In this document: piece after piece, positions 3,522 to 60,400 of the stretch
Layout: each line of letters starts with the position of its first letter
Position numbering within the stretch: the stretch's first letter is position 1
From: Ceratodon purpureus
Taxonomy: Eukaryota; Streptophyta; Bryopsida; Pseudoditrichales; Ditrichaceae
Length of the DNA: 64,000 nt
Direction of reading: 5' to 3'
Assembly: GCA_014871385.1 (NCBI GenBank)
Contig: CM026427.1
Location: 9,722,430 to 9,786,429, forward strand
Notes under the pieces: generated by a model
Database searches by the model: none
The model's input: only the letters and a program-made list of their open reading frames with translations
What the model was told of the DNA's origin: nothing
Made by a program: the position numbers and the translations under genes

Positions 3522-3876
3522 GTCGGCTGTCCGCCGACGCTCCCCTTCTTGAGACCTTCATGTTTCCGTTTTCTCGCATGGGTTTGTCCCTCCCGTCGGC
3601 TGTCCGCCGACGCCACCCCTTCTTTTGTCCTTCATGTTTCCGTTTTCTCGCATGGGATTGTCCCCCCCGTCGGCTGTCCGCCGACGCCACCCCTTCTTTT
3701 GCCCTTCATGTTTTGTGTTCTCTCACATGGGGTTGTTCCTCCCGTCGGCTGACCGCCGACGCCACCCCTTTCTGAGTCCTTCATTTTTTCTATTTTCTCA
3801 CATGGGTTATTCCCCCCGTCGGCTGTCCGCCGATGGGGAGGGCGTGTCCATCCGCCCCGTCGGCTGTCCGCCGATG
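3522..3876 (+). repeat. Tandem array, about 74-bp period, in the 5' intron of gene A
   Basis: Six units each begin with the signature palindrome, at 3522, 3594, 3668, 3743, 3817 and 3858. The spacings are 72, 74, 75, 74 and 41. The rest of the unit is pyrimidine-rich with conserved words ccacccctt and ctcgcatggg. The array lies wholly in the intron (3510-3920) between the 5' noncoding exon and the ATG exon. The last unit is shortened. The period matches that of the arrays inside gene B at 57.3-59.3 kb. Confidence 0.93.
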
Positions 3877-3924
3877 GAGTGAGAATCTGATGGTCTAATC
3901 TTGTGATTCTAATTTTGCAGGGCG

Positions 3925-6900
3925 ATGGTCGACTCCACCGCAAAACCAAATGGGTTACGGTGGCTCTGTGACAAGGTTGTTGATCCTGAAGTACAAATAC
4001 TCGCACGGGGCTTGAAACCGAGGGTGACATTCCTCGCTGATTCGAAGATAACGGAGTGGGGCATCACCTGGCGTGACACTCCCACGTCGCTGGGCTTCGT
4101 GACCAAAATAGGTCAGAAGCAAATGGCGGGTGGACCAAGATTTGAGATTATTGGAGCCACGGAATGCGAGGATAACGACAACGTGTGCTTGGTGTTTGCA
4201 TCGGTTCCTGTCGCGGAGGGCACACCAGTGGACTGCTTCGCGGTTGTAATTCCGGTTGAGAAGTGCATGGACGGCTTGTGCTCTAAAGAAGTACAGGAAG
4301 CGGCTACTTGGGGCAGGGGCGAGAACATAGTTGTTGAACAGATACTCGACGTGATTGATACGCTCGGAGACAAAGTGATGGAAGAGAAGACGAAGAACTC
4401 GGTTAAGCCTTCACCAAAGAAAAGAGGCGGCCGCAAGTCTGCTGTAGAAGCGGGCACTGGTACAGTCACCCCCGAGACCGGAGAGACACAGGCGACAGGG
4501 GAGTCATCGAGAAGGAAGAAGGGAAAGGCAGCGGCTAATGAGGGCAAGGGTGGGAGACAGAAGAAAGGTGGGAAGAAGGAAGAGAAAAAGCAGACCGTGG
4601 CGGAAGCTCTCATGCTCGCAAACAATCTCACTTCCAAAACAAAGGACACCGACGTCCTTGCTATGTACCAGACGTTGGAGGAGGGACTTGGGCACTGCTT
4701 CCCCAACGGGCAACGTGCCCTTCCTTGTCAGATTCCATATAACAGGATACACATAGCTCCCGACGAATTTAAGTACAGAGCGATATTCAGGAAGAGGCAG
4801 GATCAGATAAGTCTTTTCTACAAAGGACTTGGAGCAATCCGGAAGAAGCCCGAGCTGTACTGCCTTCCTATGAGTGGTGACCCCAGAGTAAAGGATCTAG
4901 TGACGGGCGAGATTAAGCTTAAAGGCTTGGAAGGACTTCTTAGACCTATGCCAACCCTAAATATCAGGTATTCACGTACATTGGATGACGGCACAACGAC
5001 GCTGGTACCTTGGTATGAAGATGAGCTCATCCATTGGTACATAATTGGGGGCCAGCACACGTTTGAGGCTTGTCGAGAACTGGGAGAGAAGGAACCACTG
5101 GACTCTCCTATGCGGCAGTATTACCTTAACCACGATATCATTCCTGTATATGCTGATAACAAGGATACCCTCATTAAGGTCTCTAACGCATTAAACATCG
5201 AGGTGAAGGATAAAGTCGCCGAAGTAAGTTTCAGGTCCCAGCTGGCGAAGATGCGCGCCAAATGGATCGAGCGGGGGAGGATCGAGAAGAAAGATGACTT
5301 CAGCGCATGGAAGGTAATTTACATCTTTCTCTTTTCGTGTTGTTTCCATGTTGTTGAAAGTCGTCGGCGGCCCGCCGACGCTCAGGTGGTTTTCCGTATT
5401 GTAATTGTGGGATTTATTTATCGATTTCATTTTCTTCTTCCTTGCAGGAGTTCTGCAAGGAGTACCTCAGTCCGATTCTCGGAAAGACCCCTACGTCCCA
5501 AACCTTGAAGCTGCCCTTAGTCTTCGTTTCTGATGAAACATACAACGAGTGGCAACTGGTGTTCAACGCCTGGGAGGAGGGGAGGATCATCGGGGAGGAC
5601 GGTTTGAAACCAGGCTTTCCCCCAAAGCCAGCCCGCCGGGACATAACACTCAACGACATGCAGTACGTGATCGGTCTTCGGGACCACGAATGCAAGAGGC
5701 TGGCCAAGGAAGTTCTGGACCTTAAAGTGTACCTCAAGGTTACTGGGAAAGAGGTGGTTCAACGGGACGGAATATCCTTGGAGAATTGGTGTTTTCGTGT
5801 GAAGTACGAGTATGTTGTCCGAAACGAGCTCATGTGTATTTACAGGGGCTTTGCACTGAAGAAACCAGGGACTGGGAAGCATATTGAGTGGAGCATGGAT
5901 GATTGGAATTCCCTTGAAGTCAAGAAGGGGTTCAATGATACAATGATTAGTAATATTCGGGCTGACTTGGAAGATAGTCCTGAGGGGAAGGAGTGGCTTA
6001 AGGGACGGAATCATCCGCTCACGCCGTCGCACGGGCCAACACCAGAATTCTTCAAAGACATTGTGCAGAAGTACTGGAAGTCGGATGTGGACCAGTCTTC
6101 GCAATCGTCTGTACAATTCGATGCCCGGATTGCACAGGACCTAGGTGAAGTGTGCACAGCTCTTGACGTTCGCGGAGCATTCTCCTTGGACAAGGCTCAG
6201 TATGAGATGTTCGTAGTCTTTGGCTACGATCGAGCGGGAAAGGAGATGCCTAACATGCGACAACAACACGTTATAACTGTCGCTGAGAGGATTCACTGTG
6301 AGGTGGAGGAGGAGGTCATTCAGGTGGATGGGGAGGTAGATACAATTAAGGTGAATAAGCTTGTCACCCCATCCTTGTGGCTACTCGATGCTGAGTGTAA
6401 TTACACTCTTCAAGGCGTGTCAAGGCTGACGAGTAATTCGTGGACGGTTCATACTATGCAGTACTTCCCTGATAGTTCCGCCGGGTTTCAAAGGAGTTCT
6501 CTCATTGACTCTAGACCCAAGGTTCATGTGTCCGTTATGTATCCAAAAACAACGCCCGGGGATGCATGGAATACCTTCTCGGACTTCACTGGTTTGAAAC
6601 GTCCGCTTCCTCCCTATGTGGACGAAGGAGAAGATCATCTTGGGGAGGATTGGTCAAATGGACACTGCCACGCTAGTTACTCTTTCCTCCAATCTCTTCT
6701 GGAGAAAGCGATGCAGTTTGAGGACGTTTGGGTGATCAATTGCTGGGGAGGGGGGAACGTCACGGCCCTCGCTCTGGTAAGTTACTGCAGTCTCTTCTGG
6801 TGCCTTCGCTGTTTGCTCACCGATCGTCGGCGGGCAGCCGACGCTGATTGAATCCTTCGTGTTTCTTGGGTAAGAGATTTCCTTAACCGTTTCGTCTTGT

Positions 6901-8101
6901 TCTGCTGCAGAAAAACCATTTGACTGTAATTGAGATCGTGCGTACCGAGGAAGAGAGATACGAAGCGCACTGTCGGGTTCGGAATATGACGTTCATTCCG
7001 GGCGTTTATAACGTGCCCGTCGAAGCTCCAGTTCAGACCACGCAGTCTGGGGCCGGGCCGTCTGTCCCCGCCTCTACTAGAGGCAGGACTGGCTCTCTCA
7101 CGGCTGCCGACTTGGGTGTGAATGCGGAGGAGGCCCATTTGGTCGGGAAGGGTGGATGTATGGGTTCGGGGAAGACTGCGGGGGTTCCCTCACAGAGTTA
7201 TCTGGACTCCGACGACGATGTCGACGAGGAGCCACCAGATGTACCCGACCCAGACGTTGTAGATGAAGCTGGAGATGCCGAGGAACAGCCAAAAAACGAG
7301 GACGACCAAGCTGAGGCTCGCATTCCAACTGGAGATGCAGAGGTAGAGGAGCGAGACACGGAGGACTTAGACTATGAACCAGAACCCGACGTATTACCAC
7401 TGGAAGAATCAAATCCTCGTTACGTGAACCCACCGCTGTCGCAAGTTCTAGGGGAGACCGGAACTGACTCCCTCAGCTTCGGTATTATTTCTCCTACAAT
7501 TCAAGAGCAGGAGACTCCTCTCGCCGAGCCAGAACGTGATTTAGACCAGGCGGGGCGTCCAAAGAAGATGCAGGTTCCTCTAGCATCGAGGCCTGACGAT
7601 GAAGTGGTTCTCCGTGTCCAGAAGCCTACCCAGGAGCCTGCAGTGAGCATTGAAGGGCATGTTCCTCCTGCTGCGGTCGGCGGGCAGCCGACGGCAGACG
7701 AGCAAACCTCATCTAACCCCTCTGCCAAGACCAAGTTGACAGGGAAGTCAATCGCATTCGTCACTCAAGGTGTGAAGGGCGCAACTCGGATGATTGGCCC
7801 AGATGAGAACCCTCTGGTCAAGACACGATCATTGAAGAGAAGTAAGACCGATGGTACTGCGCAGGATTCCTCTCTTGTTGGTAACTTATCCCGTGATTCC
7901 TCAGGGGTTCAGGAAGGGGAGGAGTCCTCTGGGAAGGGCAAACGGAAGGCTGCTTCGAAGAAGACTTCCTCCAAGAAGGGCACATCTGGGGATCTGCTCA
8001 TGAGTCCCAGGAATGTGGACGCTCCAGAGGACGTTCTGTCACCTCCGCGGGCATCCAAACGGGAGCCTAGGCCGAAGAAGCACAAAGGTGGAGGTCAGTG
8101 A
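3925..8101 (+). CDS. Gene A: ParB-like / degenerate methyltransferase-like protein, three coding exons
   Basis: Coding exons are 3925-5313, 5448-6776 and 6911-8101, joined by introns 5314-5447 and 6777-6910 with GT-AG ends. All joins are in phase, giving about 1,302 residues. Residues about 145-220 are lysine/serine-rich and look nuclear. Around residue 375 is WYIIGGQHTFEACRELG, which matches the ParB/Srx-type catalytic loop (G-x-x-H-x-x-x-A). At the end of exon 2 is VWVINCWGGGNVTALA followed by VIEIVRTEEERYEA. This occupies the place of the SAM-binding motif I of beta-class DNA methyltransferases, but the usual acidic residue and DPPY-like motif are lost, so it is probably not an active methylase. 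The C-terminal 300 residues are acidic and disordered, ending in a basic tail. A palindrome copy inside exon 3 encodes VGGQPT. It is a divergent relative of gene B. The domain call rests on motifs and on the alignment with gene B. Confidence 0.8.
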
Positions 8102-8333
8102 ATCAGGCGGTGGCCCAGTCCATCTTTTAAATGCCTGCATTGATAATTTAGTCTAGTGATCGGGCGCTAGGATTGTGTTAGATGTTTGTACTGCCAAATA
8201 TGAATAAATTTTCGGTAAATGCCAAGTTGTACGCTTTCCCTTTTTCCAAATAATGTTGCTTGCAAGTCAGCTGTCCGCCGACCGTCATCCTAACCGTCAC
8301 GTTTGTCCTCTGCTTCGTTTTCTGTCACTCCAG

Positions 8334-9103
8334 AGTCCGCGGACAAGGAAGTCCATGGAAAACTTCACGAAGATAGACCCAGTGCAGTTCTGGAGCAGGG
8401 ACCTCCACCTCTGAATTCACTTCACATAGCCCCGGAACACGCTGGTACTCAGGTACACGATCCAGTGCTGAAGTACTTTCTGGTTCTGGATATTAACGGC
8501 CTGCTATTAGTCCAGACGAAGCAGGGTACTAGGTGGAATACTAAACTTAGACCGGGTTTAGAGAAGTTCCTAGAGTTCTGCCTGGACAATTTCGAGGTGG
8601 TCTTCTGGAGCTGCGTTCAGGAAAAGAGGTTCGAGATTCTGTGGACAGTGTTGCAGCAGCGCTGTCCTCGTCTAGATGCCGAAGTGCGCTACAAGTTCGA
8701 CCAGAGTTTCTGCGAGACTTGCGTACATAAGGCTAGTAGGGAGTTTTATTTGAAGAGACTCCAGACCCTCTTTGACCTCGATGACGGGCTGAAGGGGACG
8801 GGGGCGTCTTCAATTAACACTCTCTTGGTTGATGATTCCCCTTATAAGAATGTCGCAAACACTCCTTGGAACGCTGTGCACCCTACACCATATACCTTCG
8901 AGTCGAAGGAGTCGGAAAATAAGAGGAATTATCTGCTTGGAGAATTGATTCCTTGGCTTACCAGTTTGAAAGAATCTAAACTCCCCGTGCCCGAGTACTG
9001 CCAGAAACACTCCGAATTCGGTCAGCGTCGTCTGTTTCCGGGGGATGAAGCTTATAGTCTCTTCTCTCCACACATTGATTGCCCTAAACGAAAGAGAACA
9101 TAG
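8334..9103 (+). CDS. FCP1-like HAD family gene 1 (5' exon not found)
   Basis: The exon follows a strong acceptor (cactccag at 8333) and reads to a stop at 9103. It contains FLVLDINGLL, then RPGLEKFLEFC, NFEVVFWS, NTLLVDDSPYKN and a C-terminal basic CPKRKRT. This order is that of the plant HAD/NLI-interacting-factor-like (FCP1-like) phosphatase family. The first aspartate of the nucleophile motif is kept; the second is Asn, as in several plant members. There is no in-frame ATG before the HAD motif, so an upstream exon must supply the start, and I could not place it. It is the best preserved of three tandem relatives. Whether it dephosphorylates proteins is unknown. Confidence 0.75.
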
Positions 9104-9754
9104 TAGATGTAGAAACTGTTTTAGAGAGCATGCACATGATTCAGTCGGCTGCCCGCCGATGGGATCTTCATGTATTTAGACTTTTACAGTAAATAAAGTT
9201 TTCCTCCTTTTAAATATATGAGAACGGAACTCAGTGTCGAGACTGTGTATTCTGTCGTGGGTGTCTTATTGTGTCTCCATTTGTACACTAGAGCAAGTAT
9301 GAATTGTGAGCACGCGATTGATCACCCATGTTTTCTTGGAATTTGTCCTTCATTGTTCAGGAGTCACTAGAGGATGACGCTGAAATTGAAGTGCACCAGG
9401 GACCTTCCCTTCTTAGTATGCTCTTGGAAAGGTACCCTACATCTCCTGATGGTGATGCTCACAGAGAAGAGTCTCCGGGAGCGGAAGCCGAGAATGAAAG
9501 TGATGGGGAGGACGAGTACGACTATCCAGTCGGCGGGCCGCCGACGCTGTCTGCTGCACATAGCTCTGGCCGGTGTGCGATGGCTTCCACCTCGTTCGTC
9601 GAGACCAACGTCGCGATCCCGCGCACCGGTTCCCGGCTCGATGATTCCGTCAGTGTCAGCACTGATATTATTGCGCGTAATATTGAGGTACCTCTCCAAC
9701 GATACTACCTTGTCCTTGACATTAAGGGATTGCTCATCGCGGAGCACCACGGGT

Positions 9755-11622
9755 CACTATAAGAAACCTGTGTTTTTGGAGATGTTTTCCAAAAACATGG
9801 TCGTGTTTTTGTCATGTCTTTGTGTCGGTCAATCATGTCTTGAGGATCGTGAGGACGTTAACGCGTTTTTTGAGATAAACTGGGCTTATTGTGCTCAGAC
9901 ATGGACATGCTACCCTAAAAACGCAAAGACGTCTGGAAAAACGTCCGCATCTATGGGGACGTGGCAGAGGACATCCCTTTTAACACAAAATTGCCCGATT
10001 GACAACGGCCTCGTTTTGACGGACGGTAAAATGGGCCCGAACTTACTGGGCTGCGAGGTAACTTCCTGCCCGAAGTGAAAAAAACCAGAAGAAGGGCAGG
10101 GTCAGCCAAGGGAGCAAAAGAGGCCGAGAGGGATTGAAGGACCTTTTTTTATTTTTTCTTTGTAAATGAAATTTACAATATCAAATTTCTTCTCTATTTT
10201 TTTTTCAAAGACGTTCGCATGTCTCGGAAGATGTCGACACAGACATCTGTCGAGACATGGTGACGTTCATTCATCCATTTTTTGTTCATTGGCGGCAACA
10301 TTCATCCTTAGATTAGGGCTTTGAGCCTTGGTAGGGTTAGGGTGAGCCGCCACTTTGGCGGCTTCTAATCTTGTATTTGAGAGCTTTGTTTCAAGCTTTT
10401 TGTGTCTCCATGGAGTCTCTCCCGTTTGTTTCCCTATCAGTCCGTCATTTCTTGTCCAAGTAGAGTGAGAATTAGCATGGTTGTAGTTCTCTTGTAGGGC
10501 TTTCCAATGGTAGTAAGCACGTCCAATTCCGAGTTATAGGGAGTGAGATATGGCCTCCCGAAGTTGGGGTTGTCAAAGGAGTGCGGCTGGAGGAAGGGTG
10601 TCGGATTTTTAGCAATCAGTCCTAGGGTTTTGTTTCTATGCTTCTGAAATTTTTAGGGTAGATTAAAAATTAACTCAGCTTTCCAATAAGCTAAGGCACG
10701 CCCCAATCCAAGCTAGGATGGAGGAATGGCAACCTAAAAACTGAAAGGTACTTCAAAAAACTCTGAGGGGGGTGTATTTTCCCAACTTTATTCTTGCTCT
10801 CCATCTTCTTCTTTTCTCCTTTCCTCCCTTGTTCCTTTCTTCATGTGATCTTCTTTCCTTCACTTCATTGTGATTAAATGCCACCTTCATAGCTGCAGAA
10901 ACACCTCTGTGGTTGCAAAGACACCTTCATGTCTGCAAAAACACTCGCATGTCTACAAAAAACACCCTCATGTCTGCAAAAAACACCCTCATGTCTGCAT
11001 AAACACATTCATCTCAGCAAAAACACCCTTCCACACATCCTGTACACGTTGACATGGCCATGTCAGCCATGTTAAAGTTTACAGCATGGAGATGTTCACT
11101 ATAACAAATGCCAGACATAGTTCATGTCCGCACAGACATCGGCGTGGCCATCACGTTGTTACCAACAGACGTCTTGAATACCACGGTGATGTCCCCGGTG
11201 ATGTCTTCAGTAACGCATTTCGAAGTCAATAATCTCCGAAAACTATGCTTACGTGGCAGGCCACGCTGGACTTTCGCGGCTGACACGTCAGATTTTCCCG
11301 CGGCCACCTCAGAAAATGGCGGGTCCACGTTGTCCGCCACGTCACCATGGCAGCGGTGACATCCTCCGCCCATGTGGCATTGCCCGGAAAATTTCACTGC
11401 TGATGTGTCATGACGTGGCGTCCACGTTGCAGACTTTGCCGGCCCTCGAAATCACCCGGAGACGCGCGTGCTATGGCGATGTCTACATGTTTTTTCGGAT
11501 GTCCGCATTTGTTTTCCCTGCGTCTTAGATGTTTCCATGTCTGCACGACATCCTTTCTAGCGTCCACTTGTTTTTTTCAACATGATTCGGGATGTCTTCA
11601 AAAACACGGGTTTCTTATAGTG
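9755..11622. mobile_element. Non-autonomous CACTA transposon (1,868 bp) with GGT target-site duplication
   Basis: The left end begins cactataagaaacctgtg and the right end is its inverted counterpart ending ttcttatagtg, which are typical CACTA termini. The three bases GGT flank it on both sides (9752-9754 and 11623-11625), the expected 3-bp duplication. No transposase frame is present. Short repeats of the type catgtctgcaaaaacac near the ends fit subterminal transposase-binding repeats. It sits inside an FCP1-like gene, so it is younger than that gene copy. Confidence 0.95.
10890..11040 (+). repeat. Subterminal tandem repeats in the CACTA element
   Basis: About seven imperfect units of 18-21 bp with the core catgtctgcaaaaacac lie in one orientation. 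Related words (catgtctt, gacgt) recur close to both element termini. Confidence 0.75.
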
Positions 11623-12638
11623 GGTAAATCGGTGATGACCAGAAGACAAAAATTCATATCCGGGCTAGACCAGGACTTCTTTCATTTCTAGAGTTCTGCA
11701 CGGCGAATTTCGAGGTAGTCTTTTGGTCCACGGTTTCTGAAAAGAATCTCGATCGTCACTTCCAGAAGCTGTTAGCCATTCATCCTTTGCTCAGGAGCAA
11801 TTACAGACGCCTTCCAGGATTCTGGTGTGATATCTCAACAAGGACTAATCCGAATGGGAAACGGGAGTACTTGTTGAAGCGTCTGGATAGACTTTTCTGC
11901 GACACTAGGCTACTGGCTCGATCAGGTGCCACTGTCCAGAATACCCTACTGGTAGACGACCGCCCTTATAGGAATGTACTTAATCATCCATTTAGCGCTG
12001 TCCATCCTAATTCTTTTTTCTGGGACTCTGCAGAGTGCAAAGAACCTCAACCCACCCCCAATCCCTATTTAACTAGGGTAGTTACACCATTCCTTGCAGG
12101 ACTTAAGCAGTCTGGATTGGATGTCCAGGAGTATTGTAGGAAGAATTCTAGCGTGGGGAAGCCACGTCTTTTTCCAGGATCTCGCGAATACCAGAAGTAT
12201 AGGGAGGTTATTCCTTCTCATGCATGCGGGTTTGACGTCCCGGGTGATCCTGAATCTTGGTTTGTGAATTTACCTTGTCCTCCGGAAGCCCCTGGTAGTT
12301 CCATCATCGGCGGGCAGCCGACTGATTAGAGCCTATATCAGCGGCGCCACTTGTTTTAAAAATCACATATGATACTCTACACTCTTTAGTTTAATACGCT
12401 AAGACTGTTCCCTTTCTGAACTTCCCTGCACCACACATTTGTTTCCAGTGCTGCAATTCGGTACTTCTTTTTGTAGATGCATGCATGACATTTCACTTGC
12501 TGCACATTTACCTTTGAGGTTTCTTCAATGCATCGTTTTGTCGGCGGGTCGCCGACGACTTTGAATGTAGTCCATTTCTTTCATATACTTCGTCCTGTTC
12601 TTTGATTTCCTTCACTGATTGCATTTCATATTCTTCAG

Positions 12639-13316
12639 GGTTCCTCGTTTTATTTCAAATGCCTTCACGGTCCACCTCATCATGTCAAGAAATGTATTGT
12701 CCTATGCGTCAATGGCCTTCTCTGCTATGTGGATCCCAGGATAGAGGCTTTGCCATGGGATACGCATCGGAATGTAGTGAAGCGCCCAGGTTTGAAGAAG
12801 CTTTTTGACATGCTTTTCTTGCATTTCCATGTTAGTCTGTGGTCGAAGATGCCCTTGGGAGAACTGAAGCCTTTACTCACACATATTCTGCCGGCCAGTG
12901 TAATGGAGAGGCTGTCCTTCGTGTATAGCAGAAGTGACCTTATCGACCGGGAGAATTTCCCCTGGAGTTATAAGACGTTAGGTCAAGTTTGCTCCAAGGT
13001 ACAGTCTAGAAACGTCTGCAAACTAGATCAGGTGCTATTTGTGGATGTTGACCCGAGGTCATTGAGGAGGACACCAAATTGTATGTGCTACATTCCTTGG
13101 CCTTTTCAGGGTCATCTAAACTTTCCGAACGATGACGGTGTTATACCTAACATTGCTACAGATATCCTTCCTCTGGTTTATCCCTTGCACAAGTTCGGAT
13201 CTGTACCGGAGTATATGGCGCAGGCGTGTAGGCCGGGGCAAGTGCACTGGGCAATTGAAGCTGCGAGAAAGTTTGGACGTGCACGAGTGGACTGGACTGA
13301 AGTTTGCTGGGACTGA
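12639..13316 (+). CDS. FCP1-like HAD family gene 3, divergent
   Basis: The exon starts after acceptor attcttcag and is open to the stop at 13316. CIVLCVNGLLCYVDPR aligns with the nucleophile motif of the two upstream relatives, but the catalytic aspartate is replaced by cysteine. RPGLKKLFDMLF, HFHVSLWSK and QVLFVDVDPRS follow in the family order. The loss of the nucleophile makes classical HAD phosphatase activity unlikely; a binding or regulatory role, or decay, is possible. No start exon was identified. It may share upstream exons with the neighbouring copies, which lie in the same orientation. Confidence 0.6.
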   Translation, partial: GSSFYFKCLHGPPHHVKKCIVLCVNGLLCYVDPRIEALPWDTHRNVVKRPGLKKLFDMLFLHFHVSLWSKMPLGELKPLLTHILPASVMERLSFVYSRSDLIDRENFPWSYKTLGQVCSKVQSRNVCKLDQVLFVDVDPRSLRRTPNCMCYIPWPFQGHLNFPNDDGVIPNIATDILPLVYPLHKFGSVPEYMAQACRPGQVHWAIEAARKFGRARVDWTEVCWD

Positions 13317-13844
13317 GTTAGGCGGACTTTTTCGCCTCCAACTTGCAGTTCTTCCCTCCTCCTGACCAACAGAACACCTTCCATCGGCTGCCCGCCGACT
13401 TGGTCGACCCGTTTGTGCGGCCTTCAAATATATGATTTACTCATTGACCTTACGGCTATGCTTTCAGGGAAATAGTTTTCCGAGTAGGTTATAATGTGAT
13501 AGGATTTACGTCAACTTGGTACATAGTGCTGGGTGTAGACTTAATGTTGTAGGACTTCATGACTCAAAGTGCTACGGGACTAGTTAGTTTAGCGTGTTCT
13601 ATTATCGGCGGGTCGCCGACTCTGTATTGTACATTTCATTACTTGAATCAACATGATATTCTTTAAAGTATTCATTGTAACTCTTATTCTGCATCATATG
13701 TCGCAATCTTCGGGTTCATATATCCATCACTGGCAAATTCCGCCCATGCACATCTCGATGTCCAGTTTTGCATTCCATATTCTGTGGTATTCATGTACAA
13801 TGACACTGTTCATCTGTGGTCTCCATCCATCGGCGGTCCGCTGA

Positions 13845-17020: not shown

Positions 17021-17028
17021 TCTCTACT

Positions 17029-46860: not shown

Positions 46861-46901
46861 GTATATATGTGTAACTACAAAACCACAACTGAAGAGATTG
46901 A

Positions 46902-48524: not shown

Positions 48525-49057
48525 CGGGCCAGATGGTGCTCGGAAAATGTTAAGTCCATGACGCGTCGCAAACGGCGATAGGCGAGTTGTAAACGGGGTT
48601 TTGAGAATATGCATAAGACATGATGTTTAGCTATTTATAGAATTTAATTGCTGAATTAAAAAGCAATGATATGCAATTAATTATATTAGTACTCTTATTG
48701 TATTCAGTGCCAGGTAAGAGAGCCATAAGAAATAACTTGAAATTGTATACTCACTATGGATAGAACGTAAATATTATATGAAGTAAATATTATATGATAT
48801 ACAAAACAAGCAGTAAAATATTATTACTGAAAAATGAAAGCAATGACGATTGTAATATATGCTATTTCTACCTTTCATAATTAATATTGCTATTTCTACC
48901 TTCCATAATTAATGTCAGTTTTCATAATTTTACAATCTATTACTAATAGTGTTTTGAGTACATTTTTAAAATATGAGGATTCAAAATGATATGAAGTGGA
49001 TTACGGATTTTTTTACGTTCAATAAATATATTAGAAATGCCTCTTCTTCCTGAAATT

Positions 49058-50089
49058 TCAAAGGTCCAAGTGCTCTAGTCTTGGACGCTTTGGTGGTTGA
49101 TCTTCATTGTCAGGTTCTCTTGTCCGCTTCCGTATTGGAACCCAGTCAAATCGTTTTTCCCATATTGATCCAGTTTGTCCACATCCAACTCGGTCCAGCC
49201 ATATCCCTTCATTATCTGCTTTCCATGCGCAATCTATACAGTCGATAGGCATTGAAATGCTGTTCACTAGAGGAGGTTTCCATATTTTAACATCTCTACG
49301 ATATGCCATACTCCCCAGGTCTTTAAATTTGCATATCCAAGGCGAACTGAGTAAACGCTCGTCGGTGAGTGGATTTAAGGATATGTAAAAAAATCGTTCG
49401 GAAATGTGTGCTCGAAGTCGTCCTGGAATTATCACGTTATTCATTGGGGCATCCATAACTCCATGTGTAAGCAGTAATTCTTCATCGAGATCATTGAAAA
49501 TAGACACTCTATACTCCTTCAGAAATTCATGGTGGTCCTCGTCCTCCTTCCATTGCTTAAAAAGCTTGTACTGATGCCTACCGCTAAAAGGATGGAACTG
49601 AGAAACATACAGACCATCTCGTTCAATATTCCATCGACACAAATATGTATCAGGGCTGGGACCTTGTTCACAGATTGGACAGTTGTCATCGTTGAAATTT
49701 GCATCTTCGTGCCGCATAAGACGAGCATGTGGATGCTCCCAGATGCACATGTAATTAATCTCATATTTTTTGGCACAGTTCCATTCGCGGATTTCGTATT
49801 CAAAATCGCAAAACAAATTATCTTCAAAATCGAGAAGACCGCGGCCAACTTCGACAGATGCATGAGCTTTGATTTGATCAAAGACGACATTTTGCTTTAT
49901 TGGCACACCACGATCATATTGCTTTTCGAAGCAATCTAGCCATACCTTCTTGGGAATATTATTTGTAATTTCAACTGGTGACAATACATTCTGTATAATT
50001 TCCTCATCAAATGATTGTACTTGTCGGAAATTTGTCAGAATTAAGACATAGAATAGAGGAAAAACGCATTTAAGTCTATGATCTGCCAT
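49058..50089 (-). CDS. Uncharacterised 343-residue protein
   Basis: A single uninterrupted frame from an ATG at 50089. The first 28 residues (CVFPLFYVLILTNF core) could be a signal peptide or anchor, but the C-terminus (RKRTREPDNEDQPPKRPRLE) looks like a bipartite nuclear signal, so location is uncertain. In the middle, CPICEQGPSPDTYLCRW is a possible metal site. Tryptophan- and aspartate-rich; no family is recognised. A start at a later methionine would remove the hydrophobic segment. Confidence 0.55.
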   Translation of the reverse strand: MADHRLKCVFPLFYVLILTNFRQVQSFDEEIIQNVLSPVEITNNIPKKVWLDCFEKQYDRGVPIKQNVVFDQIKAHASVEVGRGLLDFEDNLFCDFEYEIREWNCAKKYEINYMCIWEHPHARLMRHEDANFNDDNCPICEQGPSPDTYLCRWNIERDGLYVSQFHPFSGRHQYKLFKQWKEDEDHHEFLKEYRVSIFNDLDEELLLTHGVMDAPMNNVIIPGRLRAHISERFFYISLNPLTDERLLSSPWICKFKDLGSMAYRRDVKIWKPPLVNSISMPIDCIDCAWKADNEGIWLDRVGCGQTGSIWEKRFDWVPIRKRTREPDNEDQPPKRPRLEHLDL

Positions 50090-50682
50090 GCTATTAAGTA
50101 TATGTGAATTCTAATTGAAGATTAGGAAATTCAAAATTACGAGGACGGAACTTTTTTGTTTCAAATGTTCACAAAAAGAGTTCCATCCTTCCATATCACT
50201 CATGATGCCTTATCAGTAAGAGATATACCCTTTGAATATAGAGAACGGTTTAGCATAATAATTATTTAATTCAACTTCCTTCTTCAAATTTTTTTGGAAG
50301 CCATTTCAGTAACAGTTATACCCTTTGAATATAGAGAACGGTTAAAATAGCAGTTATTTAATTCAGAGATTACCAGTACTTATCCCGCACACTTCCCGAA
50401 CACTTGCTGTTAATGCTCATATTTAAAAACTTATAATTTAAATGTATGCGAATATACTAATGAAATCTGAGGAATAAAATGAAACGGAAAATGGACAGAA
50501 TCATTCTGAAATGAATAGGACAAGCAAATAATATTTTTTTTTAGCCGATATATGTACTTTAATAAAATTACAAAAATTTACAAAATGGAATGCTAATAAA
50601 AGCGTCAGTCGCGGTACAAGAAATGTACACAAGGAAGAGAATATACTATGCCGAAATTTCACGTAGATCTAAGGAAATACAT

Positions 50683-51147
50683 CTAGTCATCCGAGTCACT
50701 GTCATCGTCGCTAAGAACGATGACATAGGACTCCGGACCATCCACCGTCGCTTCGGTTTCCTCCTCTGCAGCATACTCCAGGAAATCAGAGTCTTCGCCT
50801 TCTGGAACATACCCGTCATCCTCCGGGCAGTACTCATTTCCGTCGCCGCCTGCTGCAACCGCATCCATCCACTTCTGCACCCACTCGGGGATGCCATCAT
50901 CGGAACTCTTTACTTCGAAGCAAATGGAGCGCCCATGACCTTCCACACACATTAACCGCATCGTCTCCTTGGGCTGGGTTGGTGATGGCCCTTGAAAGGC
51001 TTGGTGCTCGATGTCAGGCAGTGGAGTGACTCCTTCTGGAATTCGGGAATCAGGGACTGGACTGCTCCGGGATGTCGGACAGGTGCATGGTCCGAGCCCA
51101 ACGCATGTTGTGCAAACCATTGGAACTCTTGAAGAAATATTCGCCAT
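50683..51147 (-). CDS. Small Cys-motif / acidic-tail protein, paralog 2
   Basis: 154 residues. MVCTTCVGLGPCTCP at the N-terminus, then MCVEGHGRSICFEVKSSDD and IPEWVQKWMDAVAAGGDG, and an acidic tail VIVLSDDDSDSDD. It is a clear paralog of 46902-47342 in the same orientation. The core GHGRS-x2-FEV and P-x-WVQ-x-WM are the most conserved. Its promoter-like TATA lies near 52.08 kb with an intervening 5'-UTR intron. Confidence 0.7.
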   Translation of the reverse strand: MANISSRVPMVCTTCVGLGPCTCPTSRSSPVPDSRIPEGVTPLPDIEHQAFQGPSPTQPKETMRLMCVEGHGRSICFEVKSSDDGIPEWVQKWMDAVAAGGDGNEYCPEDDGYVPEGEDSDFLEYAAEEETEATVDGPESYVIVLSDDDSDSDD

Positions 51148-52036
51148 CTGCTTACCAAGATTAAAAAGAAATTAATACGGTTCGCCTCAAAGTTTGGCAA
51201 GACAGAATCTGCCTTGTCCGAGTAGCACGGCTTATCCTGACACATGCATGGTTCGATATTTGAGAAGAGCATAGGAGTACTGGCAGGATCAACTAGGTGG
51301 CTATTCCTTCTTATCACAAGTTACGCACAACGGAACCAGGTGCAAAGGTATCAGCAAATCCCCCATCGGCACCAAGGTAACCCCCACTAAACCTTACACT
51401 GAGCTTGCTCCCGGTTGGCCACTTATAGCGGACGGACGATAGAGTCCAAAGCGGTCGGCCACCGAGAACTCACTAGCCCAGATTAACCAACACTTACAAG
51501 AGCATGAAACCAACATTTCGAAATCCAAATGGGAGGCAATGACAAGGCAATGCTATTTATATTTGTGTGTAACCCTTAATCACAGTATCATCAGTATCTC
51601 AAGGCTTGAGCACTGGGGCAAACATCCCGCCCAACTCTTTAGAACCGAGCGAATTGTCCACTCTTTGGAAAAGTCCGTAGTAGCCAGCAAACGAGAACAA
51701 AACAGCGCAGACAATCCAACACTCACGTAGAAACATGATACAAACATTACGAAACACCGAATCAATTGGTGTACCTAGGTCAGAGCAACTGTGCTAACAA
51801 TCTGCCCAACTCGTCAATCCCAACCCCACTGACGATTCTTCGGAAGAGTCCGTAACCGCCAGCCAACGAGGACGAAAGAATGCAGATAGACCAACATTTA
51901 CGTGGAAAGATGATACAAACATTACGTAAACAATGCAAGGGAACAAACGACCCGCCATACTACAAAGAACCAAAGCCAAGAACCGAAACCCACAAACCGA
52001 AACAAAGAGTAAAATGGAATAGAATTTGGAACGCAC

Positions 52037-52090
52037 CTGAAGAGGTCGGAGAAAAGATGGAGAACAATGCATTTAGGATTGGTTTATATA
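52037..52090 (-). promoter_or_regulatory. TATA promoter and leader of paralog 2
   Basis: Minus strand: tatataaacc (52081-52090 region), then a short leader ending acctcttcag immediately followed by a gtgcgt donor. It parallels the arrangement at 48.06-48.11 kb. Confidence 0.6.
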
Positions 52091-52139
52091 GCCCGCAATG
52101 TCGGCAGAAAAGGCGGCGCCGGCGAATAGGTCAGAATAA

Positions 52140-52280
52140 ACCACGCGGAAACGGATAAGGCGGCGGCGGCGACACTTAGGTCAGAGCATGCGGCTGCGGC
52201 GGCGGCGGCAGTTAGGTCAGAGCATGCGGCTGCGGAGGCGATTGCTTTGGCAGCTAGGTCGGCGGCGGCGGTGTTGACTA
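52140..52280. repeat. GC-rich ggcggc / ttaggtcagagcatgc repeats
   Basis: Two copies of ttaggtcagagcatgcggct are separated by trinucleotide ggc runs. It is a simple repeat upstream of the paralog 2 promoter. Confidence 0.8.
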
Positions 52281-52289
52281 GGTGCACAA

Positions 52290-52372
52290 GACCCCGGCGG
52301 AGTTGGCAATTGGGATAACCAACCTCTAAAATCCGACAGATGGTTATCTCAATTTGCCAAGGCCACCGGGGT
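52290..52372. repeat. Hairpin element H2 with tccgaca core
   Basis: Outer arms accccggcgg / ccaccggggt; inner arms ttggcaattgggataacc / ggttatctcaatttgccaa pair almost fully; the apical loop holds aaaatccgacagat. It lies about 200 bp upstream of the paralog 2 promoter. Confidence 0.85.
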
Positions 52373-52374
52373 TG

Positions 52375-52520
52375 ATGGTTGTGGTGTGGGTTGAGAGTGA
52401 GGGTGAGGGGAGTGTGAGGGTGAGGGGAGTGTGAGGGTGCGGGTGAGGGAGAGTGTGAGGGGTTGGGCGAGGGAGAGTGTGAGGGGTTGGGCGAGGGAGA
52501 GTGTGAGGGGGCGGGAGAGG
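52375..52520 (+). repeat. G-rich minisatellite (gtgaggg units)
   Basis: Repeated agtgtgaggggttgggcgag-type and gtgagggtgaggg units give many G3-G4 runs on the plus strand, so a quadruplex is possible. It adjoins hairpin H2. Confidence 0.85.
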
Positions 52521-52679
52521 ATCAGGGTCGGGGCTAACAGTCAGGGTGAGGTTGGAGGGAATAGATAGGTTGAACATCGTGTTTGGCGGTGTTTCAAAAC
52601 TTCCATGCTTTCGGGTAGTATGCTAAGATAAGGGGACAGTTATTGAAAAGTTCGTAATTGCCGAGCAGTCTATATTAGG

Positions 52680-53159
52680 ATGTCGATGGCCTTGTCACAA
52701 CGCTCAGAGCTTCGTCGAGTTGAACTTATTCGTAGATTTAAGCGCCAGATCGCAAAAGCCACTTTATACCTAGCTTCAGTAGATTTTACAGTAGATGGAT
52801 CGGTTCTAAATCCTGCCCGAGAATATGCCTACAGTCCTGAGGATGAAAAGGTTGACCAAGAGGTGCGAAGACTTGAATCAATTCTTGTGCAGCACGAGCG
52901 GGCAGAACTAAGAATGGCGATGGCAGTTCTTCCGAAGACAGTGGACATTTCCAATGGCGCAGAAGAGTATATGAGTATGATGGAGGAAGTCTTTGAGGTT
53001 CTAATCATGCCAGGATGTGTGCTCCCACGAGATATCTTTGAGCATGTCACGGGTCTTAGGCTCATCCGAGATGAAGGATATTGTAGCTGCCACGATTCAA
53101 AGGCCAATGAGAATGAGTATTTTGACGTTGACCTAGAAGCGTGGGTGGTCCAGCTGTAA
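52680..53159 (+). CDS. Uncharacterised 159-residue protein
   Basis: A single frame from the ATG at 52680 (MSMALSQRSELRRVELIRRF). Mostly helical, with a basic N-terminus, EVRRLESILVQHERAELRMA in the middle and an acidic C-terminus. It is divergent from paralog 2, with hairpin H2 and the G-rich repeat between. No family is recognised. Confidence 0.5.
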   Translation: MSMALSQRSELRRVELIRRFKRQIAKATLYLASVDFTVDGSVLNPAREYAYSPEDEKVDQEVRRLESILVQHERAELRMAMAVLPKTVDISNGAEEYMSMMEEVFEVLIMPGCVLPRDIFEHVTGLRLIRDEGYCSCHDSKANENEYFDVDLEAWVVQL

Positions 53160-53380
53160 TGGCAGAGTAGAAATATTTTATGAGAGTGTATGTCTTGACC
53201 CTGTAGACTATGTGCATAAAGACTATTATCAACTTAGTTCACTACCGGCACAGATGCCAGGCCATTGTGTGTTATTCACATTTTGAAGTAATTGATTAAA
53301 GTCCTTTTTCAATTGCACTAGATGCTTGCAATCGAGTATATCAAATGCAACAATTCACACCTCAATTTATTATATAATGG

Positions 53381-53444
53381 ATTCAATGTACAAAATCATG
53401 ATAATGGTAAATGGATTCAATGTACAAAATCATGATAATGGTAA
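53381..53444 (+). repeat. 32-bp tandem duplication
   Basis: The phrase ggattcaatgtacaaaatca plus tgataatggtaa occurs twice head to tail. Confidence 0.9.
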
Positions 53445-53773
53445 AACAAAGAGTGAACGCATCAAAAAATGCATGATAGAAATAGCAAAAGAATGTACAA
53501 AGTCATATATGGTCAAGGGATGGACTTAGATGCCACCCGGGATAAGTAATTCAACGTGAGGTTAAGGGCAAATTTCGAAGAGCTGCATTCGGAAAAAGCG
53601 AATTAGAATGTTGACAACAAAAAGAACCAGAGAATAAATACACGACAGAATGATAATAATAGATCAAAACAAAAAAATACCAAAAACATGAACAAATGCA
53701 TGTGTTAAACTGCGCATGAGAAACCAGGTGTAAAACCACGCACGAGACAGAGAAAGTAACGGAGCGGGAGACG

Positions 53774-53857
53774 GACCCCGGTGGCTCTGAACGCAAGCCA
53801 AAACCATCTGTCGGATTCGTTACAAGGTTTGTGAGCTCCATGAAAACCACCGGGGTC
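53774..53857. repeat. Hairpin element H3 with tgtcgga core
   Basis: Perfect 11-bp outer arms gaccccggtgg / ccaccggggtc, 84 bp overall, with accatctgtcggatt inside. The core is in the opposite orientation to H1 and H2. Confidence 0.88.
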
Positions 53858-53899
53858 GGTGGTAGGTGACGCGCGGATATAGGTTTTGGTCTTCCAGTT

Positions 53900-54470
53900 C
53901 AAATGAATTGCATCTTAATATACATGATGGACATTTGGAAACCTACTTTGGGATTCATATTGAATGTATAAGAACTGTGCACAAAATATTAGTAGACTAT
54001 AAATAGACGAATAAATTAGAAAAAGATAATAAACATTAAATGAACGTAATTTCAAAAATAAAATTGTGATATTCAGGCATGAACATGAGTTAAGTTAATT
54101 GAATTCTTGAATAATCATACAATGGATTAAAAATGCAAGTGAGAGATAACTTAATACGGAAGATAGTAGAAACAGATTATCAGACAAATAGAAGATACTG
54201 AACAAGAAAAAAATAACAAAACAACTTATTAGCATATTAACGAATAAGATTGAGTCAGCTATTTCATTTATACCATGAGTTTTGAATGAATGAAAACGAT
54301 TTAATGAAGAAGAATGTAATCATCGCATTATGAGGACAGAGTTCATTCAAATCAGTAAATATTATGCAAACCAAGTAAATAGGTCGTATTGTTGAAATAA
54401 AAAGCTGTATATATGAAAATCCGTAATACATAGAGAATAACTGTAAATTTAAAATTCATTAACATGTAAA
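53900..54470. other. AT-rich spacer downstream of gene B
   Basis: No coding signal or structured repeat was seen. Confidence 0.6.
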
Positions 54471-54477
54471 ATTGCGA

Positions 54478-57400
54478 TCACTCCGGATCAACAAGTATGC
54501 TATGAGTAACAACTTCGGCTTCAATGTCCACAAAGTTTAGGACACGACCATCGTATTTCCTACGAGTAAATTTCTTCATTGTGGGAGACTCCACATTTGA
54601 TTGAATTTGAGCCCCCAACTCGGCATACTCTGGAAGCCCTAGCATATCAGGTGATAGTGCAATCTTTTTGATGCACTCGTGAATTATCCCCCCAGAACGC
54701 GGACTTAGCGGTCTGCAACCACACCCTTATCAAAATTTTGATCCACATTGTACATATCACCATGTGTAATCAAAATGTCTTATCTCAAAAATATTCATTG
54801 AAATACTCACTTACTCGTCGTCGCTATCCTGGGTCATCATGGCGATGAATTTATTCACCGGCTTAGGGGTGGCCACCAGGTCTTTTTCAGTCATCGGCTT
54901 GATCGGTACATGAGAGGTATCCGTCTTTGGTAGAGGCAGTGGCGGCAGGGCCATCTTCTTTAGGACTTCTGTATACAGCTCGTGATCATCCTCAAGCGCG
55001 ACTATGTTCCGTCCTGACTGCCGGCAAGCTTTGATTGACGCACCTGATACAATGGAGTGTCTCTACGTTAGATTGTGATAGTTTCAATTTTCGTAATAAT
55101 GGCCCTGTTGAAAGTTACCATGAATGTGCAAAAACAATGAAACTTACCCGTTCCGGCGCCGATGTCGACGACGACGTCACCGGGATCGGTGGTGGCTCTG
55201 ATTAAACTCTCGATGAACAGCACGTCTTTCTCCCTCGCTCCTCGCCATGGCACCTCCTTGCGCATCGTCTGTTGCTCAAGCGTTACCCAGTTGAGGATGA
55301 CATCACGGTCAACGATGTCGATGCTCTTTTTCTTGTAATCCTCGGGTGTCGGTCTGAATTCAAAGCTGTTATTCGAGGATAATGTGAGAAGTTGCACCTT
55401 AAAGAAGCATGTTGTCATGCCGCTTATTTTTGCGGAGCGAAGAAGCAATCTATTGATGCCTGTCCACGACCTCTCAGACTTCAATTCAACCACTTGATGA
55501 AAATCACGAATCTCGTCCTCAATTTCGCCATTGTCATCCGGATGGATAATGATCACACACCCCTGGTCTTGGAGAACGAGTTTAACAAAGCCAAAGACGG
55601 CTGCAAGGTAATTGTCGCCTCTGCTGTTCCAATCTGGAATCTCGTCCTCATCGGATATACCAGGGACCGGTAGACCCTCCGGAATATCAATGATAATGAG
55701 ATCTGCCAATCCACCCCCCCGAACACTCTTCCCGTCCTTCATCCGGACCCGTTGAGGGGTGACGCTCCGAATCCACTGGACCATGTCGTTGAAAGCCTTT
55801 GGCATGCTTTTCAACCTCATTCTAGGATTTGCCTTCTGCCACTCAGTTATTGATTCATTCAGAATCAACTCATGAACAGGGCATCCTGCTTGAGGTGCGC
55901 TGACGTCTGGCTTCTCAGCATGTCCAATCCTTGGAGAGAATGTCCCATTCTCCGCACCATTCGGCTCAACAGTCGCTGGGTCCGACTTCTTCCCCCTGCT
56001 CCTCTTCTTCACTGGTTCCTGGTGGGACTCCTTCGATGCCGACTTCGCTCCCCTCTTCCGTTTCTTTGTGTTCGCATCCCCGGCACCAGTGGATGTCGAA
56101 ACACCTTGTGTATCCTGTTCTGGCTCTGCATCATGAGCAGGAAGTGCTTCATCTGAAATATCATGGGTGTCGTCTTCCCCATCTTTCCTCCTGGTAAACA
56201 TCTCCCTTATAGCCTTCTCCTCAGCAGTTACAAATGACTTTGGGCACTCGATATACCAGCAGCACTCAATCAGATGGTTCAAATTGAACATCTTCCGCTG
56301 GTTGGTTGTAAAGATGAACTCGGAATTCGATGTCTCCGTCCAGCTGAACCACGGAGGTGGTATACTCTTAACTACACCAGCTGGGATGAGCTCCCGCTTA
56401 AAGTACCGATACAGACATCGTTTCCAAGCCATGTCGGTCCCTGGTTGGGAATTGAATGGTTGCGACTTCGAATACACATTAGCTCCAGTGAAGAACGACA
56501 AGTATGCCTTCTCCCATAGAAGCACACGCCACTTCTCGATGTACTCGGCCATAGGAGTGCGCTTGGAGTTAATGTCTTCCTCTGCATCGGAACTGGTTGC
56601 CAACCAGTTGAGGCACTCTTTCTCGACTTCGTCTTCCAACTGATACAAAACAATCAACTTAAGAGTTAGACACAAATAACTAAAGAGGAAGCCATCGGCT
56701 ATAACCTCGAATCAGTGTAACAACCCAGAGTTCCAGAAATGATGAACTACACTTACGTTTGCCCAAAATGCAGCTTTTGTAATCCAGGGGTTAAGCACTT
56801 CAATTGAGCAAGGTGATGGTGGAAACTTCAATGTTTTTCTTGAACTCGCCGACCCGTTCCACCACCTCAGCCATTTCGCTTTTGTTTTGGCCGACACCTC
56901 AGATGTTGCAATTGCTTGGAGCTTGTCGATGGTCATCTCAACCTTGGTTTGGTGCCGATCATAATGTCTTTTGATCTGAAAATCAACAGCATCCCAAGTA
57001 ATCAGACTAGTGAAGATTAGAATCCGAGAGACATCATTGCATTGAATACCAAATTTCCTCATAACAGAGCATTAACTATCTATGTAAAATCATCATTTTC
57101 TTTCATAGAAAGTGTGTTAGATCACCGCTAAAGGGTCCAACAGCTGATCTGTCATACGAATGCAACACAGTACCATGTAAAGAATACGATATAGATTTCA
57201 TCTATCGGATAAGACAGATGATTTATCAATGCTAAGTTTCCGAGGTACCTTGGGGTATTCGAAACATAAAAATCATGTAATGGATTTCAGAGAATATTTC
57301 TTGAGTCATATAGTCCACAATACCTAGCTAGGTGAACACAAAATAATTCTCTGTCGGATTTCAGAGATGATTTTTGATCGCCAACTTGACAAGGTACCTT

Positions 57401-60400
57401 GCGGAAGTCGACACATCAATATCGTCTGTCGGATTATTGAGATTATTTCATGTCTCCAAGTTTCCAAGGTATCTAGGTAGATTGACACAAATAAACCATC
57501 TGTCATAGGTTTTAGATTGTTTACGATATCTAATTTCCTGACGTACCTTGAGGAATTGGCCACATTGAATTCAACAGTCTAATTTCAGAGATTATTTCTA
57601 CTGTCTTACTTCCAACAGTACCAAGGTAATTGGACACAATCAAAACCATATGTCGGATTTCAGAGCTAATCTAAATTCTCCAACTTGACAGAGTACCCTG
57701 CGGTCATCGACACATTAAAATCATCTGACACACTTTAGAGAGTACTTCTTCGGACAAACATTCCAGAGTACCCAGGTAAATGGAAACAATAAAATCATCT
57801 GTCGGATTTCTAAACTTGTTTGCTATCACCAACTTGACAAGGTACCTTGAGATGATTGACACTCGAAAACCATCTGTCGGATTCTAGAGATAATTTCTTG
57901 CGACAAGTTTCCCAGAGTACCTAGGTAAATGTACACAGAAAAACCATCTGTCGGATTCTAAAGATGATTTCTCGACTCAAACATTCCAGGGTACTTCGGT
58001 ATTTTTCGCATTTTGAGGCACATTTTCCTTAATATTACTATAAAAACACATCTTAGTGCAATTAATTGATCCAAATCATCTAAACGTATGTAAAATCTCT
58101 GTGGTACCTTGCTACCATGAGTGTTATAAATTGATCTGTCGGATTTTTTAGAAAATTTCCGCGAGCTCATTGGGCACATCCCCTCGGTATTTGAACGTCC
58201 GAAATTTCTCATAAGAATCCGACAGATCATTTCTACGAAATTAATGGGCACATCCCCTCGGAAATTGAACGTCCAAAACTTCTTCCAAGAATCCGACAGA
58301 TCATTTTAAAGGAGCTCAATGGGCACATCCCCTCGGAAATTGAACATCCAAGATTTCTCATAAAAATCCGACAGATCATTTCTACAAACTTTATGGGCAC
58401 ATCCCCTCGGAAATTGAACATCCAAAATTTCTCATAAGAATCCGACAGATCATTTCTACGAACTTAATGGGCACATCCCCTCGGAATATGAACGTCCGAA
58501 AATTCTTCCAAGAATCCGACAGATCATTTAAAGGAGCTCGATGGGCACATCCCCTTGGAAATTATACATCCTAAATTTCTCATAAGAATCCGACAGATCA
58601 TTTCTACGAACTAAATGGGCACATCCCCTCGGAAATTGAACGTCCGAAAATTCTTCCAAGAATCCGACAGATCATTTTAAAGGAGCTCGATGGGCACATC
58701 CCCTTGGAAATTATACATCCTAAATTTCTCATAAGAATCCGACAGATCATTTATACGAACTAAATGGGCACATCCCCTCGGAAACTGAACGTCCAAAATT
58801 TCTTCCAAGAATCCGACAGATCATTTTAAAAGAGCTCGATGGGCACATCCCCTTGGAAATTATACATCCTAAATTTCTCATAAGAATCCGACAGATCATT
58901 TCTACGAACTAAATGGGCACATCCCCTCGGAAATTGAACGTCCGAAAATTCTTCCAAGAATCCGACAGATCATTTTAAAGGAGCTCGATGGGCACATCCC
59001 CTTGGAAAATATACATCCTAAGTTTCTCATAAGAATCCGACAGATCATTTCTACGAACTAAATGGGCACATCCCCTCGGAAATTGAACGTCCAAAATTTC
59101 TTCCAAGAATCCGACAGATCATTTTAAAGGAGCTCGATGGGCACATCCCCTTGGAAATTATACATCCTAAATTTCTCATAAGAATCCGACAGATCATTTC
59201 TACGAACTAAATGGGCACATCCCCTCGGAATCCGAACGTCCAAAGATTTACAGAACAATCCGACAGACCATTTTTGAGATCAATTTCCACTCATCACCAC
59301 GAATTTGAACGTCCTGTTTTCAAAGAATAACCCAATTGATCAACTCCAAAGTATTTACCTCGTTTTGAAATCCCTTGCCATGGACTGGATTTGCAACGGC
59401 TTGCTCTCTGTTGAACTTTGTTTGCAGCCTATCCTTGGCTTCCTTCACGGCCTTGTCCACAGCTGCCTTCATCTCGTGCCCTGAATCATCACCAGGGTGC
59501 TCGTTGATCCAAATTTGAGAAGCCTCCTCTGCGACTTGGGCCAATGTTGCCTGTTTCAGTCCACGTGCCATTAACATCTCGGGACTTGAATCATCCAATT
59601 ACGAATTGACAGCACTGATTTCTTATAACACTTACGCTGTGTAAAAACGTCACAAATACTTCTTGAGGCATCGAATGCCACGACTTCTTAGTTGAACTCT
59701 TCGTGCGCGCCAGAAGATCCGGCGTTAGAATTCCACTCCTTTCCAGCTCCTCCACAGACATTTGCCCGTACGTCTGTATCTTGTGTAGAGTGTGCGGCAG
59801 CCTTTCTTTGACGTAAGCATCCTCATTGGCCCTGTGTCGAATACAACACACACTTCTTAATATCAAAGATTCTAAATTTCCATGTTATTATATCCAACAT
59901 CAACATCCGGAGAAATACAATACTCTTGCACAGTTTAGGACTCACTTGTTGATGGCATGCATTGCTGTCACTAGAGCTTCACGGCTTCCCTTCACATCGA
60001 GCAGAATACAGTCCGGCCTTCCGTTTGCTTTAGCCCATTCAAGTCATCTGGTATTCCACTTCGATGAACTCCCGCCATGCCCTTGTGCGGTGGTTACCAT
60101 CGAAGACATAAAACATCTTTCCTGTAAGATCTTTTGTCTCCCTGTGCTGCCTGATCTCATCCTCAAACGCAGCGTTTAACACCTTCCAAGCGTTACACCA
60201 TCCTGACTTCATCTCCTCGGTGACACTTGCGACGTCCCCCGTGTGCGATGTGTCTGCAACATAAAATGCCCCAGACCCGGGTCTTATGCCGTTGAAGAAC
60301 TCAGCTGCAACTTCTGTACATCACTCTGCATTGCTGGACGCACGAAATCACATGGGATTAACCGGCATAAGGGAATCTTGATCATTGAATATTGGTGAGG

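Follow-up and report, generated by a model that had tools for sequence, protein, structure and literature searches.

The 64,000-bp stretch of the Ceratodon purpureus genome analysed here (contig CM026427.1, positions 9,722,430 to 9,786,429; hereafter the window) contains two large DNA transposons, element A and element B, and a private motif is carried by each. In both elements the motif is dispersed and is also amplified as an array with a period of 74 bp within a predicted intron; the promoters near which other sites lie are likewise predicted. Motif A is a 17-bp dyad, GTCGGCNGNCNGCCGAC (as a 17-mer, GTCGGCGGNCAGCCGAC or its complement). Motif B, CTGTCGGAT, takes the form (CATC)TGTCGGATCCGACA(GATG) or that of a half-site, its dyad forms being centred on GTCGGATCCGAC, and its sites are found as arrays, within three 82-bp dyad cassettes and as isolated copies. 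Both motifs are GTCGG/CCGAC inverted pairs, with a spacing of 7 bp in A and 2 bp in B. We give an even chance to the reading that each private motif is the binding site of an element-encoded factor that marks the copies of its own family.

Two transposons, each with a motif of its own

The window was scanned for repeated nine-mers, a word qualifying if 15 kb of the window held it at six places or more, spaced by 300 bp or more. The 16 words that qualified were without exception pieces of motif A or motif B; 60 trinucleotide-Markov shuffles yielded one qualifying word in total. The motif A words lay at 630-13391 (one of them also at 39713) and the motif B words at 44935-59186 (one also at 10599). 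When up to four mismatches were allowed, motif A had 24 matches in the window, dispersed over 630-13829, and motif B was dispersed over 44928-59259, each being missing from the part of the window that belongs to the other element. Similarly, the motif A 17-mer was absent from both other copies of element B, and the motif B octamer from both other copies of element A. Each of three copies of element A has 24 motif A sites (at most two mismatches). The first-pass annotation, made from the sequence of the window, had placed a private palindromic core in intronic arrays. The core is indeed confined to its own element, but it is dispersed beyond the introns and, in the B arrays, is mostly a half-site, the dyads of motif B being found at 44928, 46487 and 48382 and in the 82-bp cassettes.

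Genome-wide counts were taken over the 362.5-Mb genome. Motif A was found at 2,079 exact places (1,062 + 1,017) and its reversed control at 0, while motif B, counted as ATCTGTCGGATT, was found at 1,412 places (628 + 784) and its reversed control at 18 (12 + 6). The 100 motif A places listed formed nine groups of 11, 16, 17, 10, 3, 15, 15, 11 and at least 2 places, none of them longer than 16.4 kb, and 98 of the 100 motif B places listed fell into seven groups.

The carriers of these arrays had been taken for ordinary host genes, which did not hold: they belong to two multi-copy transposons. Comparison of the window copy of element A with two copies on C1 revealed terminal inverted repeats (TIRs; AAGGGGTATTTA.../...TAAATATCCCTT, 26 of 30 positions matching) and element ends reading AAGGGG...CCCTT, flanked by target site duplications (TSDs) of 4 bp that differ in each of the three copies (AAAT in the window copy, ATGT and TTAT). 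These ends and duplications show that element A is a large, mobile, multi-copy DNA transposon. The two C1 copies are 15,761 and 15,748 bp long; the window copy, which has its beginning in L040, 3.64 kb to the left of the window, measures 17,548 bp including a nested CACTA-like insertion at 9755-11622 that is missing from the other two. This insertion splits a NIF-phosphatase-like gene of element A. The DUF7869 domain of the transposase (PF25273, E 4.7e-44) was seen in the element A copy at L041:3470-5428, not in the window. Exon 2 of gene A was recovered at no fewer than 95 places, the window's own included, with 92-100% identity (95 of 448 candidates scored). Its pooled ratio of nonsynonymous to synonymous change (pN/pS), a crude count over 433 of 435 pairs, two pairs without synonymous change being dropped, was 0.42, pointing to purifying selection on this exon; no codon-position pattern was seen in exon 3 when 30 copies were compared.

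Element B is likewise a large DNA transposon, as its copies and their shared left end show. It exceeds 25 kb (at least 25.5 kb), and its right end lies beyond the window, where the flanking sequence is given as N: the adjoining 10 kb on the right (L045, C7:9786430-9796429) consist of N throughout.

Two scans of viral contigs turned up no relative of gene A or gene B, and the motif A 17-mer had one place there (L001), about the chance level by a rough estimate.

Intron arrays, cassettes and conservation of the sites

In array A, the copies of GTCGGCTGNCCGCCGA(C/T) are spaced by 73, 74, 75, 74 and 41 bp. The six units reported earlier in the first intron were recovered, this intron being a predicted one, but the spacing of 72-75 bp claimed for all of them does not hold for the last. 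Across three copies of element A the array has 6 or 7 units.

The two arrays of gene B with 74-75 bp units in one internal intron, also reported earlier, were confirmed: arrays B1 and B2 lie in opposite orientation within the predicted intron 56979-59358. The B1 core, CTGTCGGATT, is exact in five units, has one mismatch in one and is eroded in three. A plus-strand core at 58136 precedes array B2, 82 bp before the first minus-strand core. The spacings are alike in the window and in the two other copies of element B (X1 and X2): 75, 373, 75, 74 and 188 bp on the plus strand, then the 82-bp junction, after which 15, 10 and 14 minus-strand units follow in the three copies respectively. The same inverted double array with its 82-bp junction was found in all six of the motif B groups that lie wholly within the 100 listed places (gene B presence was checked for the window and two of the six). 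The 188-bp gap is found in five of the six, and the sixth measures 262 bp (188 + 74), as would result from one unit having no exact core; the number of units varies among the six groups. Units of B1 and B2, core included, have a weak inverted similarity (I9, 35 nt, 74%; I12, 31 nt, 81%), a sign that both may derive from a single array, copied and since diverged.

Array B2 contains a second block, GGGGATGTGCCCAT, that is about as invariant as the core. In array B1 a GGTACC-type sequence (CAAGGTACCTTG in places) lies close to the position that matches this block.

It had also been proposed that the period sets every core on one face of the helix. At 10.5 and 10.6 bp per turn alike, the short array A is in phase (0.86 and 0.92). 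The long array of element B is in phase at 10.6 bp (resultant 0.79-0.88 in three copies) but not at 10.5 bp (0.05-0.23 in the same number of copies), and a strict helical-phase design is ruled out for it at the latter value. A constant period needs no phase argument, since duplication of one unit gives the same result.

The three 82-bp cassettes are present in each of three copies of element B, with their ACCCCGG and CCGGGGT starts exactly 75 bp apart. At position +41, six of the nine have TCCGACAG and three have TCCGTCAG; the X1 cassette at 5390 contains a near-perfect dyad, CATCTGTCGGCTCCGACAGATG. In six of eight comparisons, in which the flanks were unmatched, position-by-position identity was 51-78% in the cassettes versus 27-40% in the 150-bp flanks, given that the cassettes were selected by 14 fixed end bases that alone would lift identity to about 40%. 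In the remaining two (X1 versus X2, cassettes U2 and U3), at least one flank matched and identity was 0.99. As single DNA strands the cassettes fold better than shuffles (z -2.8 to -5.8), as any dyad does, and the array pieces tested fold no better than shuffles (z -1.1 and +0.6). Spread over 48443-53856, the cassettes lie between small genes of this element or upstream of them.

In order to evaluate the conservation of motif A, nucleotide diversity (pi) was computed over 30 of the 95 scored gene A copies for three motifs (introns 2 and 3 and exon 3), the centre base being omitted. The arms gave 0.021 versus 0.058 in the surroundings, and 10 of 20,000 random triples were equally low. In the same 30 copies, CpG decay to TG or CA affected 2 of 296 cells within motif A and 234 of 4,661 outside it; because the gene A copies share ancestry, all these figures compare columns and not independent events.

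What may read the motifs

The cis-acting role suggested by the first-pass annotation is well supported: the motifs are private to each element, dispersed, kept in the copies examined and, for motif A, conserved above background. We propose that selection keeps each motif as the putative binding site of a dimeric, sequence-specific factor encoded by the element, which would mark all copies of its own family. The likeliest benefit would be protection from host silencing or control of the element's own genes, the part that VANC proteins play for VANDAL transposons. The leading candidate for the reader, a weaker part of the proposal, would be the encoded ParB/methyltransferase-like protein, for which such a role is plausible.

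The protein of gene B has a ParB-like DGNHR motif near 60100, after an IPLCRLIP stretch, in a region open in X1 and X2, and it has methyltransferase-like motifs and contains DIPEGLPVPG and VVVDIGAGTG. The window copy has several stops and frame changes at about 60020-60820, a stretch that is open in both other copies. Gene B matched N6_N4_Mtase (PF01555) with E 0.0039 and 17.6 bits (Pfam cut-off 26.7), and weakly two phage families, one of DNA methyltransferases (E 0.0089) and one ParB-like (E 0.1). Its relatives are a near-identical copy, P0001, and a distant protein, P0002 (E 6.8e-12), with DIPEGLPVPG in common. Gene A encodes IIGGQHTFEACREL, a ParB-like GGQH motif and an end that looks methyltransferase-like by eye. 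A protein search with gene A gave no relative at E <=0.01 (7,998 candidates scored), and a later one gave one close copy, P0003; the gene had no informative family match and none to PF01555. ParBc (PF02195) was not matched by the window piece of gene B (E <=10), by its open copy (E <=1) or by exon 1 of gene A (E <=5).

Several observations weigh against this reading. The matches behind the ParB and methyltransferase labels are weak, and a structure prediction of the gene B exon reached a predicted local distance difference test score (pLDDT) of 32 and was not used. Genes A and B, said earlier to be related, are not significantly similar in the ParB-like region or outside it (BLASTP E 0.47; 130 of 2,000 shuffles as good), so that 'the same kind of host gene' comes down to a short motif and a similar layout; the exception is a ParB-like piece of 21 residues taken alone, for which 7 of 500 shuffles were as good. 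Taken singly, the motifs of introns 2 and 3 are unexceptional, 15 of 96 and 20 of 96 windows being as low in diversity. Of the 24 matches to motif A in the window, eight, a weak one included, are inside open frames, unlike VANC21 sites, and two of the 100 listed motif B places stand alone without an array. The CpG ratio is 0.72-1.02 in element A and in element B from 48 kb on, versus 0.34-0.77 at 14-44 kb, which fits non-methylation but also recent insertion. The left 4 kb of element B are not raised (0.60-0.74), and the insertion nested in element A is not lower (0.82).

The motifs could instead be bound by the element's transposase or by a TNPA-like transposition helper, in the manner of CACTA subterminal repeats, an explanation we consider unlikely. 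Passages of PMC2613891 describe private, diverging CACTA motifs with non-homologous helpers as their supposed readers, and at either end of element A one motif lies some 0.5 kb inward. The dense clusters, however, are internal in both elements and not subterminal, at around 6.1-7.6 kb of the 15.76-kb element A and 13.9-15.4 kb into element B, which makes a transposition role of this type less likely; nor are the ends of element A those of CACTA.

AP2/DREB factors have the consensus RCCGAC. The half-site of motif A is GCCGAC, and half-sites and dyads gather at both 5' ends of the divergent gene pair of element A, as would be the case if a host transcription factor of this kind drove the element genes. 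The half-site of motif B, TCCGAC, does not fit R, the spacings of the two motifs differ and each site is confined to one element; the last two points suggest two dedicated readers. A host reader of the DREB type would suit element A but not element B, and we hold a host factor to be decidedly improbable. That the motifs are functionless selfish palindromes or by-products of unit duplication, and the arrays ordinary minisatellites, which freely change unit number as these do, is the least probable explanation, given the dispersal in unrelated contexts, the conserved arms and cassettes and the exclusivity per element.

Two further features concern genes of element B. The gene divergent from gene B, a transposase candidate, had no match in a Pfam search. 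The minus-strand open reading frames (ORFs) 46902-47342 and 50683-51147 resemble paralogues by eye, and both end in an acidic tail. Elsewhere in the window, 22658-23082 and 41833-42257 form an inverted repeat of 425 bp with 98% complementarity, its halves separated by 18.75 kb, and 37258-37995 matched Transposase_21 (tnp2, CACTA) weakly, slightly below the Pfam cut-off, and is probably what is left of a transposase.

Features of elements A and B in the window (coordinates in window positions)
Feature	Position	Strand	Details
Element A, window copy	1..13907	.	placed by BLASTN to two further copies and by comparing ends
Transposase gene of element A, 5' part	870..2666	-	ORFs; gene runs on leftward
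Motif A cluster	2502..2664	.	two dyads (one mismatch each) and three half-sites, 5' end of divergent transposase gene
Six single GTCGGC/GCCGAC half-sites	3369..3486	+	directly upstream of predicted gene A start codon
Gene A	3490..8101	+	exons ~3490-3509, 3921-5313, 5448-6776, 6911-8101, predicted by splice-site reading and translation
Array A	3522..3875	-	six 17-mers, predicted intron 1 (3510-3920, GT..AG) of gene A
Motif A, intron 2 of gene A	5363..5379	.	
Motif A, intron 3 of gene A	6826..6842	+	
Motif A, exon 3 of gene A	7676..7692	+	
NIF-phosphatase-like genes of element A (PF03031)	8303..13316	+	interrupted by nested insertion
Nested CACTA-like non-autonomous element	9755..11622	.	1,868 bp, 14-bp TIR CACTATAAGAAACC, TSD GGT
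Element B, window copy	43725..64000	.	BLASTN against two other copies (X1, X2); left end ~43725
Motif B dyad	44928..44943	.	ATGTCGGATCCGACAG; upstream of ORF at 45105
Motif B dyad	46487..46502	.	two mismatches
Motif B dyad	48382..48397	.	CCGTCGGATCCGACAC
Cassette U1	48443..48524	+	82 bp; ACCCCGG and CCGGGGT starts 75 bp apart, TCCGACAG at +41
Cassette U2	52291..52372	+	82 bp
Cassette U3	53775..53856	-	82 bp; opposite orientation
Gene B	54481..60945 (approximate limits)	-	methyltransferase-like exons ~55146-56640; predicted array intron 56979-59358
Array B1	57336..58007	+	nine units
Array B2	58129..59274	-	fifteen units, 74/75 bp apart, ~58163-59274, core in all
Gene divergent from gene B	62692..64000	+	transposase-like by eye; 777-aa open frame in copy X1

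Comparison with known systems

The dyad sites, and the GxHR-type ParB-like motif of gene B, recall bacterial ParB-parS. Differences are the missing Pfam ParBc match and the setting in a chromosomal transposon; no partition genes were among the matches made. A parS-like partition role, as the first-pass annotation had suggested, is not needed since the elements are chromosomal transposons.

According to passages of PMC2613891, CACTA/EnSpm elements have repeated, diverging motifs, some of them palindromic pairs, within their end regions, to which a protein encoded by the element is believed to bind. Elements A and B share such repeated, diverging and partly palindromic motifs, but their clusters are internal, the ends of element A are AAGGG with 4-bp TSDs instead of CACTA termini with a TSD of 2-3 bp, and its transposase differs. 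The Lanisha superfamily was reportedly described by Maumus, McDaniel and Carey (2020, Repbase Reports), authors who are said to work on the moss Ceratodon purpureus. Passages of PMC12730594 place these DNA transposons with CMCT elements, mostly with CA..TG ends, and give the CMCT-type transposase C(2)C and H(3-4)H motifs; compared by description only, element A differs in its AAGGG..CCCTT ends.

The best-documented case of transposons that counter silencing in a sequence-specific way is that of the Arabidopsis VANDALs, as far as the passages of PMC5735166 and PMC10398659 describe it: each family has a private short motif, in dense one-orientation arrays within introns and upstream, with gain and loss of units, and a related family has other motifs. 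Elements A and B also have a family-private motif in tandem arrays within predicted introns. They differ in their motifs, which are 17-22-bp dyads instead of the nine-base YAGTATTAY and are in part inside open frames, and in the candidate reader, which is ParB/methyltransferase-like; neither gene A nor gene B had an informative Pfam match. Maize TnpA is a further case of sequence-specific anti-silencing. VANDALs are MuDR-type according to a passage of PMC12730594, whereas element A has a DUF7869 transposase and a 4-bp TSD. Literature searches (ParB/methyltransferase transposons in moss, DUF7869, Ceratodon) returned nothing on these motifs, which is no proof of non-publication. It is a tentative and rather doubtful possibility that we are dealing with a second, independently evolved system of anti-silencing or copy recognition in plant transposons, in which bacterial-type ParB/methyltransferase-like proteins would read private dyad arrays amplified in the introns of their own genes, reader and address diverging together between families. 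Should these elements, whose transposase and accessory proteins are unlike those of VANDALs, have evolved the same address-array design, it would be a recurrent route by which transposons control their own copies only; the motifs themselves are strong and private enough for direct testing.

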